A stretch of DNA of 35,917 nucleotides from Deltaproteobacteria bacterium (GTDB taxonomy: Bacteria > Desulfobacterota > Desulfobulbia > Desulfobulbales > Desulfobulbaceae): assembly GCA_024280455.1 (NCBI GenBank), contig JAJRQC010000001.1:1-35917 (forward strand), given 5' to 3'. Of this stretch, positions 280-20,552 are shown in pieces. The translations under genes were made by a program, and so were the position numbers. Every line of letters starts with the position of its first letter. Positions within the stretch are counted from its first letter, which is position 1. Below the pieces are notes generated by a model. It had not been told where the DNA came from. It worked only from the letters and a program-made list of their open reading frames with translations, and did no database searches.

Positions 280-1362
280 GTGAAACTTCTCTATCGCTAT
301 ATTTTACAGCTGTTTATTAAAAATATTTTCATGTTGATGGCCAGCTTCATTGCCATCTATGTGTTGATCGATTTTTTCGAAAAAATCGACAACTTCATGG
401 AAAAGGGAAAATCCATGGGACTGGTGATCAAATTTTTCCTGCTCAACATTCCCTTTATCCTCGACCAGATGGGTCCTATCTGTATCCTGCTGGCTGGAGT
501 CATCACCCTGGGCGTCCTCAACCACAGCAATGAGCTTATTGCCCTCAAAGCCTGCGGCATTCCCTTAAAAAAGATAACCGCCCCTATCATTGGTGCCGGA
601 CTTGCTTTTACCCTGCTTTTTCTTGCCATGTCCCAGTTTGTACTTCCCAAGACGATCTCGGTGACCCACCGGATATGGAACAAGGAGGTCAAGGGCAGAG
701 TTGCGCTGGGCATTTACCGGAACGGCCGCTTTTATTATCGGGGACAGGACGGATTCTATTCCTTTGCCCGACCGGATCTTAAACGAGATAATTTCTACAA
801 CTTCTCTTATGCCTCCTGGGATGCCGATTATCGGCTCAGTTCATTGATTGCCGCGGAACGGGCACTCTGGGATGCCGGGACCTGGACCCTGTTCAACGGC
901 CAGGTCCAGACCAGTATTGACCACGAAAAATTCATCTCCGAAACCTTCAGCGATCGAGTCTTTGCCTTTCCGGAGAAACCAGCCGATTTTTTTGTCCCTG
1001 AGTATTACTCGAAAGAACTCTCCCTCACCGGCCTCTATCAGGAGGCCCTGCGAAAAAATTCTCCTGAAGAAAAAAACAGGGCCTGGGTCGAATTTTACGG
1101 ACGAATTTCCTATATTTTGCTGGGCCTGCCTCTGCTGCTGCTGGGGCTGCCCCTGCTGCTCTTTGTCTATCGTTCCTGGGGGAGGGACTTATCCCTGGCC
1201 ATCCCGGTCAGCTGCGGCATGGCCTTTGCCTGCTGGGGAACCTGGGGCACGCTGCAGTCGCTGGCAAAAGCCGGGTATATCAATCCGCTCCTTGCAGCAG
1301 GTTCAATCCATATCTTTGGTATTCTGCTGGGCATAATCCTACTCATGCGGGAAGACAGCTAA
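280..1362 (+). CDS. LptF/LptG-family (YjgP/YjgQ) LPS transport permease
   Basis: This is an inner-membrane permease of the type that works with the LptB ATPase to extract lipopolysaccharide and pass it to the periplasmic LptC/A bridge. The 360-residue length is usual for the family. Hydrophobic segments lie at about 13-31, 56-80 and 101-120, then a hydrophilic periplasmic region (about 125-268), then three C-terminal segments (about 272-355). The family motif NELIALKACGI starts at about residue 84. The start codon is GTG at 280 with no strong ribosome site; the following Met-Lys-Leu-Leu-Tyr-Arg-Tyr matches family N-termini. I cannot tell LptF from LptG; the usual partner gene is not beside it here. 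The next gene starts 22 bases after its stop, so they are probably co-transcribed. Confidence 0.9.
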   Translation: MKLLYRYILQLFIKNIFMLMASFIAIYVLIDFFEKIDNFMEKGKSMGLVIKFFLLNIPFILDQMGPICILLAGVITLGVLNHSNELIALKACGIPLKKITAPIIGAGLAFTLLFLAMSQFVLPKTISVTHRIWNKEVKGRVALGIYRNGRFYYRGQDGFYSFARPDLKRDNFYNFSYASWDADYRLSSLIAAERALWDAGTWTLFNGQVQTSIDHEKFISETFSDRVFAFPEKPADFFVPEYYSKELSLTGLYQEALRKNSPEEKNRAWVEFYGRISYILLGLPLLLLGLPLLLFVYRSWGRDLSLAIPVSCGMAFACWGTWGTLQSLAKAGYINPLLAAGSIHIFGILLGIILLMREDS

Positions 1363-1384: not shown

Positions 1385-2146
1385 ATGAAAGAAAAAGTCG
1401 GTATTGTCGGTATTCCGCCGCTTGAAATCATCAAAGAACTGCACCGTAAAAAGGTCGAGATAATCGATCTGGATGAGCCACAGGTTCAGGCGTCTCTGGA
1501 GTTGACGGCAGCCCACCTGCCCCGGGTCTACTGCGCTATCCTGCGGACGGTGATTCTCAATGCCATGCACATTGAACTGGACCGGATCTATATTGATGTA
1601 GGGCCGGGTAAATGCGACTGTGCGCTCCATGTCTCTATAATCCTCAAGGACATGCTCTCCATCCCCATTATCCCCACTCGTAATCAGGATATGGAAGGGC
1701 TTGGTTTCCCCCTCTGCAGAACCCGGATGCCGCTCCTGGACAAAATGCTCACCATTACTAAAAACGTCCGTTCCATTAACCGAGACGAAGGAAAAAAATA
1801 TCCTTCCTGCCCCCCGACGGCCGGGTTCTGGGGTGTCCCCCCCAGAGATTTCAACCTGCTGACCCTCTTTCCGGACACCACCCATATCTACGGCTGGACC
1901 CGCTGCATGGAAAACAAGACCCCGTCCGATCTCAGCCTTGAATCGCAGATCAACCCGGGAGTGCCGACAGTGTTCTTTGCCCAGTCCTTCTGTGCCAAAA
2001 CCGCACTGGCCAGACACCTGGCCGATCGGCATCCAAGGGGACTGTACCTTGACTGTGACGTTGCAGCGGGCAGCAGTGCGCGGGCAAAAATAGAGGCTTT
2101 TTTTGAGCTCTCGGGCACACCTGTTCTCCGAAAGGAGAAGTCCTGA
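1385..2146 (+). CDS. Cysteine-rich protein of unknown function, partner of the downstream activase
   Basis: I do not recognise this 253-residue protein with certainty. It has eight cysteines (50, 77, 79, 111, 142, 174, 203, 224), including a CDC at 77-79 and a Ser-Cys-Pro-Pro at 141-144. There is no signal peptide or membrane segment, so it is probably cytoplasmic. The stretch from Tyr49-Cys50 to about residue 97 loosely resembles the region of 2-hydroxyacyl-CoA dehydratase subunits (HgdB/YjiM type) that carries iron-sulfur ligands; this is a weak, by-eye likeness. The start is ATG at 1385 with GAGG upstream. Its TGA overlaps the ATG of the BadF/HgdC-type ATPase by one base, so translational coupling is likely. 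The natural inference is a protein that receives electrons or conformational energy from that ATPase. Confidence 0.75.
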   Translation: MKEKVGIVGIPPLEIIKELHRKKVEIIDLDEPQVQASLELTAAHLPRVYCAILRTVILNAMHIELDRIYIDVGPGKCDCALHVSIILKDMLSIPIIPTRNQDMEGLGFPLCRTRMPLLDKMLTITKNVRSINRDEGKKYPSCPPTAGFWGVPPRDFNLLTLFPDTTHIYGWTRCMENKTPSDLSLESQINPGVPTVFFAQSFCAKTALARHLADRHPRGLYLDCDVAAGSSARAKIEAFFELSGTPVLRKEKS

Positions 2147-2805
2147 TGCTGCTGGCTGATTTTGGTACATCCTACAGTAAAATTCTGCAAACAGATTCCG
2201 GCAAAGACCCGGCCATTGTCGCCACCCGGGATATTGGCCCTGATTTCTGCGCCGATCTGGCCACCGGCCATAATGCAGCCAGACGCAGCGCAAGAAGCAT
2301 TAATGAACTGACCGCCCTGGCCCGGGGAGGAGAAATTCTGATTGAGGAAGATGATTTTGTTCTGCTCGATTGCGGTAGCCGGGATATCAAATTTATTCGC
2401 TACCATCAGGGCCAGGTGGTTGACATGGGCTGGAACGCTGAATGCGGTGCCTCCATGGGATTTACCATCGAAATGCTGGCCACCTATTACAAACTCGATT
2501 ATTCGGAAATCGCCATCCCGAAAACAGGCTTTTCCATAACCTGCGGTGTTCTCGGCATGAGTCATATCTTTGATGCCGTCATCTCGGGCGCTTCGGAAGC
2601 TGAAGCCGTGGCAAAATTTGTCCGCGGTATCGCCCGCAACGCCTATCGCTTTGCCGGCTCCCCTGACCGGTTGTATCTTTCCGGCGGTCTCTGTGACAAC
2701 CCCTTATTTACCGGCAGTTTCCCCTGCAACATCGTACCACTTGGCAGATTCGTCCTGCTCAAAGGTTTGCTGGCCACTCTGGAATCCGAACAGAACAAAG
2801 AGTGA
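2146..2805 (+). CDS. Mini BadF/BadG/BcrA/BcrD (HgdC-type) activase ATPase
   Basis: This belongs to the ASKHA ATPase family that activates 2-hydroxyacyl-CoA dehydratases and benzoyl-CoA reductases by ATP-driven electron transfer from a [4Fe-4S] cluster held between two subunits. Visible motifs are phosphate-1 DFGTSYSK (residues 5-12), phosphate-2 LLDCGSRD (73-80), and an adenosine-type LSGGLCDN (178-185). Cys100 (AECGASMG) and Cys133 (ITCGVLG) match the two cluster ligands of classical activases. At 219 residues it is shorter than the usual 250-270, with most of the loss before phosphate-2. It has a strong ribosome site (AAAGGAG) and its ATG overlaps the preceding stop. No recognisable full dehydratase or reductase subunits are nearby, so the target is probably the upstream cysteine-rich protein. 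Confidence 0.85.
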   Translation: MLLADFGTSYSKILQTDSGKDPAIVATRDIGPDFCADLATGHNAARRSARSINELTALARGGEILIEEDDFVLLDCGSRDIKFIRYHQGQVVDMGWNAECGASMGFTIEMLATYYKLDYSEIAIPKTGFSITCGVLGMSHIFDAVISGASEAEAVAKFVRGIARNAYRFAGSPDRLYLSGGLCDNPLFTGSFPCNIVPLGRFVLLKGLLATLESEQNKE

Positions 2806-3623
2806 TGAACCTGGGCACGGTCTATACCTGCGGCAATGTACCGCTGCGAAAAAATCTCGAAAGGCTGCTGGACGCAAGCGGGCTCGGAGAGCAGGTTCAG
2901 GCGACAGAAACCGTATTGATCAAGCCCAATCTGGTCAATGTTCTGCCACCACCGATCACTACCCCGGTTGAACTTATCGCCCATTTGATTGATTACCTGC
3001 AGGCAATAACCGCTGCCGAGATCATCATCGGAGAAGGAACAGCTTCCGCCCGACACGACACCTTTCATGTTTTTACAGAACTCGGCTATACGAAAATGGC
3101 GGCCGAAAAAGGGGTGCGGTTGCTGGATCTCAACGACGAGGAAACCGTCTGCCGCAGGCGCAAAGAGTGCCTCCGCTGGCCGGAGATGCACCTGCCGAAG
3201 ATTGTGTACGAGAGTTTTCTGCTCTCAGTCCCGGTCTTGAAGGCTCATACTCTGGCCGGGGTGACCTTGAGCTTGAAAAATATGATGGGACTGGCCCCGC
3301 CTGCTCATTATCAGCAGGGAAAAAGCAGCTGGAAAAAAACAGCCTTTCACCGAAAAATCGGACAAGCGGTGGCCGATCTCAACCGCTATCGCCGTCCTGA
3401 CTTCACCCTGCTTGATGCCGGAGTGGGCATGGTCGAATCCCATCTCCGGGGGGCGACCTGTGAACCGCCGGTGGGCCTTTTGATTACGGGTTCCGACCCA
3501 GTGGCAGTTGATAGCCATGGGGCAGGACTTCTCGGTAAAAACTGGCGCAATATTGAATACATCCGTGAGCTGGACGGAGAGCTTGGTCAGGCCGCACCGC
3601 TGACCATAATCAGAACCGATTAA
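2805..3623 (+). CDS. DUF362 domain protein
   Basis: The 272-residue protein is nearly all DUF362 domain. Signature segments are IKPNLV (39-44), TTP (52-54), IIGEGTA (74-80), SVPVLKAHT (141-149), SLKNMMG (156-162) and TGSDPVAVD (228-236). Some DUF362 proteins carry a ferredoxin-like CxxC cluster; none is visible here, only scattered cysteines (9, 116, 122, 219). The family's biochemistry is not well defined; members often sit beside iron-sulfur or corrinoid/anaerobic enzymes. The start chosen is ATG at 2805, which shares one base with the activase stop (TGATG); a GTG three bases upstream is the alternative. It ends the plus-strand operon, facing the minus-strand mini-gene 84 bases away. Confidence 0.85.
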   Translation: MNLGTVYTCGNVPLRKNLERLLDASGLGEQVQATETVLIKPNLVNVLPPPITTPVELIAHLIDYLQAITAAEIIIGEGTASARHDTFHVFTELGYTKMAAEKGVRLLDLNDEETVCRRRKECLRWPEMHLPKIVYESFLLSVPVLKAHTLAGVTLSLKNMMGLAPPAHYQQGKSSWKKTAFHRKIGQAVADLNRYRRPDFTLLDAGVGMVESHLRGATCEPPVGLLITGSDPVAVDSHGAGLLGKNWRNIEYIRELDGELGQAAPLTIIRTD

Positions 3624-3707: not shown

Positions 3708-3869
3708 TTATTTTTTCTTCTTCTTTTTCTTCTTTAGCGCGGCCTTTTCCTTTGTCAACTGTTTACACTTCTTCTTGATCAGGACCGGACACTTGCTGCA
3801 ATGCTTCCCCTTTTTCAGGTACTTACCACAACAGCTTTTTTTTACTTTTTTCTTCTTTTTTTTACCCAT
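3708..3869 (-). CDS. 53-residue lysine-rich, cysteine-containing small protein
   Basis: An ATG at 3869 with GGAGG at correct spacing opens a 53-residue frame. Residues 3-8 are lysines, the tail ends in eight lysines, and the middle holds CC (13-14), Cys24, Cys27 and Cys35 in the pattern CC-x9-C-x2-C-x7-C. About half of all residues are Lys. The cysteine spacing suggests a metal site, and the charge suggests binding to nucleic acid or the ribosome; both are inference. It lies 87 bases downstream of the FKBP gene on the same strand, with a hairpin between them. The complementary frame gives a phenylalanine-run protein that is only its shadow. I know no name for it, though the perfect ribosome site and composition argue for a real gene. 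Confidence 0.75.
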   Translation of the reverse strand: MGKKKKKKVKKSCCGKYLKKGKHCSKCPVLIKKKCKQLTKEKAALKKKKKKKK

Positions 3870-19727: not shown

Positions 19728-20501
19728 TTACCGCGGTGTTAAGGTCCGACGATCTCCTAGAGTAAACTGCAGCCATTGAAAGCCGAATTTCAGGAGTTCG
19801 GCATCGTCACGTTTAATCCGCCGGCGCTCGTCCTTGCTTAATCGAAAACCGGACAACAGGTTGTGGCGACTGACGTAGGAACGAAATTCATCCAGGTTAT
19901 AGCATGCCATAAAGGCCATCTGCTGGCGATGACCGGCCTCTCCTTCGCCCTGCCACGGGTTGGTGGCAAAAAAAGCATCGACTTCAGCCCAATAATCATT
20001 CATCAGGTTATACTCATGAATGAATTGATCCCTTTCCCATTCAGATACCGTGTAGGTCCGTTCTTCCTGATGTCCTTTACAATAGGGGTGATGGGTCATG
20101 AAATAATGAACCTGCAGAGACTTTTTCCCGGGCAGTCGTTCAACGGCCCGCTCAAGGGGGTAGGTCCGGCAGGATGAAGGACGATCCTTATAGACCGAGC
20201 AGCCGGCCTTTTTTAGAAATGGACAGGGATACCCGTCTTCATCGGCCATATTGAGCATCACTGCAGGAAAATAGGGATGAGAGCCCTCGGCAATCCGGGT
20301 ATGGCGCTCCATAAAATCACGGGAATGAAGGCCAAGCCTGTTTTTCAACCTGAGCACATCGTACGGATAGAGATACATCTCCACCTTATGGCAACAGACC
20401 AGGTAACAGGGGACCTCGGGATGACAGTGAAAATGAAATCGCTCTTGACCAACCGGAGTTCGTCCTTCGGGAATCGGGAATGGATTTTCATGTTCGCTCA
20501 T
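19728..20501 (-). CDS. YkgJ-family (UPF0153) cysteine-cluster protein
   Basis: The 257-residue protein resembles the YkgJ family of presumed zinc- or iron-binding proteins. It has an N-terminal cluster C-x5-C-x3-CC (26, 32, 36, 37) and a second set at Cys93, Cys101 and Cys111 in the family pattern PCPFLKKAGCSVYKDRP, then SSCRTYPL. The first cluster is spaced more widely than the usual CxxC-type start. The C-terminal half (about 130-257) is not recognised. I chose ATG at 20501, with a GGGGG run before it; an ATG at 20513 directly abuts the T-run of the upstream terminator and would have no leader. It is a lone gene between two ribosomal transcription units. Confidence 0.8.
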   Translation of the reverse strand: MSEHENPFPIPEGRTPVGQERFHFHCHPEVPCYLVCCHKVEMYLYPYDVLRLKNRLGLHSRDFMERHTRIAEGSHPYFPAVMLNMADEDGYPCPFLKKAGCSVYKDRPSSCRTYPLERAVERLPGKKSLQVHYFMTHHPYCKGHQEERTYTVSEWERDQFIHEYNLMNDYWAEVDAFFATNPWQGEGEAGHRQQMAFMACYNLDEFRSYVSRHNLLSGFRLSKDERRRIKRDDAELLKFGFQWLQFTLGDRRTLTPR

Positions 20502-20512
20502 CGTTACCCCCA

Positions 20513-20552
20513 TAAAAAAAGGCTGGTCGGTGAATCATCACCGTCCCAGCCT
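20513..20552 (-). terminator. Rho-independent terminator of the alpha operon (after rplQ)
   Basis: On the minus strand AGGCTGG and CGGTGA pair with TCACCG and CCAGCCT around a four-base loop (20520-20552), followed by seven T (20519-20513). It lies 36 bases after the rplQ stop and ends the ribosomal supercluster. Confidence 0.9.

Follow-up and report, generated by a model that had tools for sequence, protein, structure and literature searches.

A conserved gene pair predicted to encode a cut-down dehydratase-fold protein and a minimal activase, probably an ATP-driven electron-transfer enzyme found mostly in Desulfobulbales

What does a cysteine-rich protein that belongs to no listed family do directly ahead of a short ATPase of the HgdC/BadF activase type? 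The question is raised by a locus near the start of a 35,917-nucleotide stretch of DNA from a Deltaproteobacteria bacterium of the family Desulfobulbaceae (assembly GCA_024280455.1, contig JAJRQC010000001.1, positions 1 to 35,917, forward strand), which in its full length is called the window here. The initial annotation had described three coupled genes, a cysteine-rich protein (O1), a mini-activase (O2) and a DUF362 protein (O3), and had proposed ATP-driven low-potential electron transfer with the DUF362 protein as an accessory. Our analysis narrowed this to the first two genes, and we consider it probable that O1 and O2 form a two-component archerase-type enzyme for ATP-driven low-potential electron transfer that is independent of coenzyme A (CoA). 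The two genes are as follows.

1385 to 2146, plus strand: O1, a predicted minimal two-domain protein of the dehydratase/benzoyl-CoA reductase/double-cubane (HGD-D) fold, 253 residues (open reading frame, AlphaFold2, Foldseek and VIA-align, cysteine conservation, profile-profile comparison).
2146 to 2805, plus strand: O2, a putative minimal activase of the HgdC/BadF/DCCP-R type (ASKHA ATPase), 219 residues (open reading frame, profile, AlphaFold2, VIA-align).

O1 had no Pfam or NCBIfam match even at an E value of 10, and against the sequences of the PDB phmmer returned one match only (E 0.94) and a profile search none at E<=10. Its kinship to the HGD-D proteins emerged only through structure, the family PF06050 and profile-profile comparison. 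An alignment of 45 O1 sequences was used for an AlphaFold2 model, which was obtained with a mean pLDDT of 93.9 and a pTM of 0.89, and for assessing cysteine conservation. When the model was searched with Foldseek, ranks 1 to 7 were all occupied by chains of 3-methylbenzoyl-CoA reductase (MBR), DCCP and BzdN (E 7e-7 to 9e-5). VIA-align matched ten entries of the superfamily with Z scores of 11.8-15.2 over 229-238 residues at a root-mean-square deviation of 3.0-3.7 A, the best being HadC (3o3n_B; Z 15.2, 231 residues, 3.3 A), and the first unrelated chain in the ranking had a Z score of 5.6. The structure prediction that the initial annotation had recommended thus returned a match over the whole length of the protein, and the predicted structure has the two alpha/beta domains in the arrangement of the superfamily.

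Profile comparisons pointed to the same families. PF06050 was reached at E<=1 by 11 of the 45 O1 relatives (best E 9e-4), with four members for the runner-up family. Profile-profile alignment of O1 with 14 HGD-D proteins using hhalign gave an E value of 3.5e-5 and a probability of 72%. Aligned half by half, the N-terminal halves matched at E 8.3e-7 (92%) with C50 and C77 falling on HGD-D cysteines, and the C-terminal halves at E 2.2e-4 (45%) with C203 on the last HGD-D cysteine, while the crossed half-against-half controls gave E 0.14-0.89. The likeness to dehydratase subunits, first described as faint, can be stated as a distant kinship to the dehydratase, benzoyl-CoA reductase and DCCP proteins (Z about 15 over 231 residues, together with the profile matches), and we conclude that O1 is, by its predicted structure, a cut-down protein of the HGD-D fold.

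Cysteine conservation was then compared with the cluster ligands of these enzymes. O1 has exactly eight cysteines, as had been counted earlier, at positions 50, 77, 79, 111, 142, 174, 203 and 224. C50, C77, C174 and C203 were invariant in all 45 sequences and C79, C111, C142 and C224 were not. Further residues around the cysteines, including K76, D155, W171, R173, E176, Q200 and K205, were also invariant (45/45), which speaks in favour of a defined site and against a protein in decay. The 14 HGD-D proteins share six invariant cysteines, which are common to the HGD-D and the DCCP-like alignments and which by alignment with BzdN correspond to Cys36, 73, 100, 263, 293 and 327. The accessible text of PMC11971306 gives these as the ligands of the [8Fe-9S] cluster of BzdN and places a [4Fe-4S] cluster in BzdO on Cys95, 128 and 380, at the position of the proximal sub-cluster. 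C50, C77 and C203 of O1 align with the columns of BzdN Cys73, Cys100 and Cys327, so that the three ligand cysteines of the catalytic (proximal) cluster, with the ligand roles taken from that text, have counterparts in O1. On alignment and fold these three are probably ligands of a [4Fe-4S] cluster. The six cysteine ligands of the DCCP [8Fe-9S] cluster have no full counterpart in O1, which retains four invariant cysteines.

The length of O1 bears on what the enzyme could act upon. As described in the accessible text of PMC11971306, BzdN consists of three domains (1-155, 156-227 and 228-376), the middle one comprising three helices, packed with the N-terminal helix and forming part of the channel for the CoA tail. 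In the O1 model the first strand begins at residue 4, and the spacing between C77 and C174 is 97 residues compared to 163 between BzdN Cys100 and Cys263, if C174 occupies the Cys263 position. Judged by length and topology, O1 lacks the N-terminal helix and the middle helical domain of the dehydratases and class I benzoyl-CoA reductases, the parts that help to build the CoA channel. CoA thioesters are therefore, we infer, probably not substrates of O1.

O2 was more readily placed. It scored 35.7 bits against TIGR00241 (cut-off 125.4) and 21.9 bits against PF01869 (cut-off 31.5), missing both cut-offs. A profile built from 24 O2 sequences matched HgdC (1hux, 7e-15), HadI (4eht, 2e-13), DCCP-R (7yyl_E, 1e-12) and MbdP (9gai_C, 2e-5) in the PDB. 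The initial annotation had reported intact ATP motifs and both cluster-ligand cysteines, and this was borne out. The ASKHA motif residues D5, G7 and K12, D75, G77, D80 and K82, and S179-G180-G181 were invariant in the 24 sequences, as were C100 and C133 (24/24), which align with the HgdC cysteines of DKCAAGTG and TCTVF and would provide two cysteines per monomer for a bridging [4Fe-4S] cluster. The AlphaFold2 model (pLDDT 94.2) has the ASKHA fold, and its top six VIA-align matches were all activases (Z 19.7-20.9, the best being DCCP-R 7yyl_E at 20.9), followed by a pantothenate kinase at 16.4. The claim that O2 is unusually short stood in part: at 219 residues it is shorter than HgdC and HadI (270-276) but just slightly below DCCP-R (243). 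By sequence and model O2 is best described as a minimal activase, structurally closest to DCCP-R.

To determine whether the two genes belong together, 192 genomes of the window's bacterial class were scanned. O1 was found in 152 and O2 in 154, and all 152 O1-positive genomes also carried O2. The two genomes with O2 only were one in which the match begins at a contig edge (G131) and one with a weak match (G114, E 1.6e-5). A scan of a genome collection gave 319 O1 relatives, and the loci of 80 of them were studied. The O1 matches listed in the scan of the 192 genomes were 55-87% identical to the O1 of the window, far beyond chance. Most of the 80 were from Desulfobulbales, including the cable bacteria Electronema and Electrothrix, and the others were metagenome-assembled genomes labelled Hebobacteria, Bacillota, Glassbacteria, Gemmatimonadales, Poribacteria, Zipacnadia, Gastranaerophilales and others. 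O2 adjoined O1 in 72 of these 80 loci, and in 92 of 100 when 20 more loci were added (87 by the adjacency rule and five with a gap of 0), at least some of the added loci being repeats of places in the collection. Among the eight genomes without an adjacent O2, six had a strong O2 elsewhere (E <= 6e-77); in one of these six (L065) the contig ends at O1, and the two genes may be adjacent there. One genome (G165) holds the pair twice, duplicated as a pair on contigs C33 and C27, and also has two copies of a neighbouring gene, C4, described below. The distance matrices of O1 and O2 were correlated with r 0.87 over 72 loci, and 0 of 500 permutations reached as high a value. These data show that O1 and O2 are a conserved unit. 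A draw of 394 genomes across the phylum (completeness >=90) gave O1 in 25, seven of them outside the window's order (two families), and O1 is rare outside the window's class. Gastranaerophilales was considered as a second stronghold and rejected, as 77 genomes drawn from the class yielded a single one with O1, the very genome on which the search had been centred. In the literature searched, from which subscription papers were mostly absent, no publication on the pair was found among the matches listed.

In a Gastranaerophilales metagenome-assembled genome (L109:6755-9376) the genes overlap in series, the end of a glycine-cleavage P-protein gene with O1 and O1 with O2. In a Gemmatimonadales metagenome-assembled genome O2 is unlinked from O1 and overlaps a gene encoding NFACT-R and ThiI domains (L146:9346-14370), which is followed by genes that by eye resemble mnmE and mnmG. 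No metabolic context shared across lineages was found in the loci viewed; the neighbours of the pair vary between lineages, and for this reason no function was inferred from them.

ATP-driven low-potential electron transfer was retained as the best reading because O1 is kin to the dehydratases, benzoyl-CoA reductases and DCCP and is paired with a mini-activase (O2 Z 20.9 to DCCP-R). In the mechanism that we propose, an O2 dimer would bind one [4Fe-4S] cluster between C100 and C133 of each monomer, and ATP binding and hydrolysis would drive a very-low-potential electron from this cluster into O1, as in known activases; a mechanism of this sort is described in the accessible text of PMC11574389. 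O1 would probably be a homodimer, as DCCP is, and by alignment and fold each subunit may hold one [4Fe-4S] cluster ligated by C50, C77 and C203, whose fourth iron would be left open, bind water or face C174. Without the N-terminal helix and the middle domain, O1 would probably not pass its electrons to a CoA thioester; the final acceptor would more probably be a small metabolite outside the CoA esters or a cofactor, either free or bound to a protein, and the boldest candidate would be a corrinoid protein acting with C4 (described below).

Several results weigh against this interpretation. The 11 relatives that reached PF06050 at E<=1 were the only ones of the 45, the O1 of the window was not among them, and the two O1 relatives scored against the PF06050 cut-off of 28.4 bits stayed below it (13.8 and 11.8 bits). 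The hhalign probabilities were 72%, 92% and 45%, and the Foldseek superpositions were loose, with TM scores of 0.56-0.61 by query length and 7.4-9.1 A over gapped alignments. The counterpart of C174 is ambiguous, as the order of secondary structure places it at Cys263 and hhalign in the column of Cys293, and if C174 sits on the fourth iron the O1 cluster would be a plain electron relay and not a catalytic site. The absence of a CoA channel was deduced from lengths, spacings and the domain description of BzdNO rather than from docking. Two small genomes (L071 and L131) have O1 and no convincing O2. Finally, 40 of the 192 class genomes showed no O1, and the pair is therefore not essential in general.

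The O1-O2 pair was compared with the characterized systems of this type. DCCP and DCCP-R (PDB 6eno, 7yyl, 7yzm) likewise combine a single HGD-D-fold partner with a short activase, and both members of the pair match them in structure (Z up to 15.1 for O1 with DCCP and 20.9 for O2 with DCCP-R). However, DCCP has about 420 residues and six ligands, compared to 253 residues and four invariant cysteines in O1, which from its length lacks the middle domain. HgdAB and HadBC with the activases HgdC and HadI resemble the pair in fold (3o3n_B), in three cluster cysteine positions and in the ATP-driven activase, but they consist of two subunits whereas there is one O1 gene, which falls below the Pfam cut-off and by length has no CoA-binding middle domain or N-terminal helix. 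The class I benzoyl-CoA reductases (BzdNOPQ, MbdONPQ) resemble O1 in fold (9g87_B, E 6.9e-7, Z 14.7) and O2 in activase type; they are heterodimers with a CoA channel, while the single gene O1 gives no heterodimer and, by its length, no CoA channel, and it carries only part of the [8Fe-9S] ligand set.

A second D-component subunit was not found. The earlier observation that no usual dehydratase or benzoyl-CoA reductase subunits lie close by was extended to the whole genome of the window, in which PF06050 had no match at E<=0.001, and a classical dehydratase, benzoyl-CoA reductase or DCCP that O2 could serve was therefore not found. Substitution of the pair by full-length PF06050 proteins was considered in a comparison set of 37 hand-picked genomes, 22 with O1 and 15 without, which was also used for O3 and PF02965 below. 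Full-length PF06050 proteins were present in 15/22 and 11/15 genomes respectively, independently of O1 and with no anticorrelation, and this idea was rejected. What appears new in the O1-O2 pair, from sequence comparison and modelling, is the same fold and activase with a two-domain partner, fewer cysteines and, by length, no CoA channel.

The genes around the pair were assessed for a part in its function. The neighbouring features of the window are as follows.

1 to 279, no strand: most of the intergenic region between lptG and the divergent gene C4, which is on contig C133 (blastn).
280 to 1362, plus strand: lptG-type lipopolysaccharide export permease gene, GTG start (PF03739 224.5 bits; TIGR04408 188.9 bits, below the cut-off of 240).
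2805 to 3623, plus strand: O3, DUF362 protein of 272 residues (PF04015 139.5 bits), overlapping O2 by one base.

C4 lies outside the window at L194:10921-12549 (minus strand) on contig C133 of the same genome, and the final 137 bases of this contig match the first 137 of the window exactly (blastn). The arrangement of C4 divergent from lptG was found on a single contig in three genomes of the genus (L198, L199, L200). C4 is a RACo/AcsV-type ATPase (PF14574, PF17651, PF17650) that scored 464 bits against NF040756, below the cut-off of 800. RACo, AcsV and RamA are, like O2, ASKHA ATPases for low-potential reduction, and C4 is of this kind, but O2 itself matches the HgdC branch instead. C4 differs from RACo and AcsV in that the N-terminal [2Fe-2S] (Fer2) domain was absent at E<=0.01 from 4/4 copies scanned, while it was present in 3/3 of the other RACo proteins of the window's genome.

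C4 was found in 117 of the 152 O1-positive genomes and in four of the 40 O1-negative ones, with an orthologue threshold of about 55% identity or more set by eye. The completeness of these four genomes is 77-85%, and O2 was present in one (G131). C4 was within 5.7 kb of O1 in 92/92 cases on the same contig; in 25 further C4-positive cases no distance was obtained, C4 being on another contig or the place of O1 not given. O3 served as a control since it is equally close, yet it showed no association with O1 in the comparison set, in which its orthologues (E < 1e-60) were present in 10/22 O1-positive and 7/15 O1-negative genomes. Four O1-negative loci were also viewed. In three of them (L185, L186, L188) O3 follows an lptG-type gene 54-70% identical to that of the window, with no match to O1, O2 or C4, an arrangement that looks like an empty site; in the fourth (L187) there is no lptG-type gene near O3. 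C4 is thus a better-associated neighbour of the pair than O3.

This association suggests a different role, in which O1-O2 and C4, a RACo-type ATPase that has lost its own [2Fe-2S] domain, would jointly act as a split reactivase and O1-O2 would deliver the low-potential electrons to a corrinoid protein. The missing Fer2 domain, the distribution and proximity of C4 and its absence from the three lptG-O3 loci without the pair are all consistent with it, as is a URO-D-like gene close to O1-O2 in the scanned locus from Hebobacteria, which counts for little because a look-alike was seen by eye near O1 in Poribacteria (L070). On the other side, 35 O1-positive genomes have no close C4, though in two of them (G007, G009) a PF14574 gene of greater divergence lies no more than 5 kb from O1, and no RACo gene was recognised by eye in 19 listed loci, all outside Desulfobulbales. 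The counts are moreover not independent, owing to the relatedness of the genomes and the common neighbourhood of C4 and O1; the Fisher value calculated from them takes no account of relatedness and does not stand for a probability. The MetH activation domain PF02965 was considered as a complement of the pair and rejected, since it occurs in O1-positive and O1-negative genomes alike and does not separate them cleanly. It was patchy in the comparison set, strong in 3/3 g17 genomes (G013, G017, G035), 3/3 g3, 5/7 g2 and G118 and otherwise weak or absent, and cobalamin reactivation may therefore differ between genera. We regard this role for O1-O2 and C4 as unlikely, and the specific scheme of a split corrinoid-reactivation machine, in which C4 holds the corrinoid protein and the archerase pair supplies it with electrons by way of a single [4Fe-4S] cluster, would be slightly less likely still.

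A non-redox function was also considered, in which O1 is a sulfur-transfer enzyme like the thiouridine desulfidase TudS (DUF523) and the activase merely repairs its cluster. According to the accessible texts of PMC10611767 and PMC11971306, TudS is, like O1, a shortened relative of this fold, a single domain in which three cysteines serve as ligands and one iron is left open. However, the TudS monomer has one domain while O1 has two, and those texts do not mention an activase partner, whereas the activase co-occurs strictly with O1; we judge such a function very improbable.

ATP-driven electron transfer by O1-O2 thus remained the preferred reading, and the last alternative concerned its extent. 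Both junctions of the trio are one-base TGATG overlaps, as originally reported (the O3 start is the ATG at 2805, with an in-frame GTG at 2802), and this had suggested a three-gene unit. Of the 81 eligible loci, 13 had O3 downstream of O2 at no more than 1.2 kb (in L079 the match to O3 was merely partial), and in the five O1-positive genomes viewed (L189-L193) O3 lay away from O1-O2. The adjoining DUF362 gene is therefore not a conserved part of the trio while the O1-O2 pair is, so that the neighbourhood survey, named beforehand as able to refute the proposal, speaks against the trio and leaves the pair standing. DUF362 was rejected as a third component or accessory on its rare adjacency, its equal frequency without the pair and its persistence behind lptG in loci without O1-O2. 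The permease gene encodes a clear member of the LptF/LptG family by Pfam and NCBIfam, and lptG-type genes were upstream of O1 in 61 of 88 loci with enough flank; no lptG-like match was found in 23 loci of other lineages (L053-L072, L109, L110, L131), some with short flanks. The suspicion that the link to Lpt is mere operon position therefore held. That the trio with DUF362, or an operon with LptG, is a functional unit related to the envelope or lipopolysaccharide is hardly credible, despite the overlaps, the frequent upstream lptG and other envelope genes near the pair in two lineages (lolC/lolD/lpxD/fabZ-like by eye; a Kdo transferase in L062), as DUF362 is independent of the pair and the pair elsewhere lies beside glycine-cleavage, tRNA-modification or metallo-beta-lactamase-type genes (several by eye). 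DUF362 and LptG are neighbours and not parts of the enzyme.

Two further cysteine-rich open reading frames were seen in the window. One of 53 residues, rich in lysine and cysteine, lies between O3 and an FKBP-type isomerase gene (3708-3869, minus strand), and small lysine- and cysteine-rich frames of similar appearance adjoin the FKBP-type gene in L189 (6581-6856) and L190 (6574-6870). The other lies amid housekeeping genes (19728-20513, minus strand) and presumably resembles the YkgJ-type metal-binding proteins.

In the parts of the literature consulted here, CoA thioesters are the substrates of those archerases whose role is defined and DCCP has no known physiological role, and according to the accessible text of PMC11971306 enzymatic Birch reduction is at present limited by its confinement to CoA esters. 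That 152 of the 192 genomes sampled from the class carry a two-domain version seemingly without a CoA channel points to an anaerobic reduction of low flux with a non-CoA target, for which no earlier assignment was found. The small size of O1 would make it a convenient model for cutting an [8Fe-9S] protein down to a single cluster. The link to a RACo-type protein makes the corrinoid answer directly testable, and if split corrinoid reactivation proved true, the pair would be an archerase that targets a protein-bound cofactor instead of a CoA thioester.

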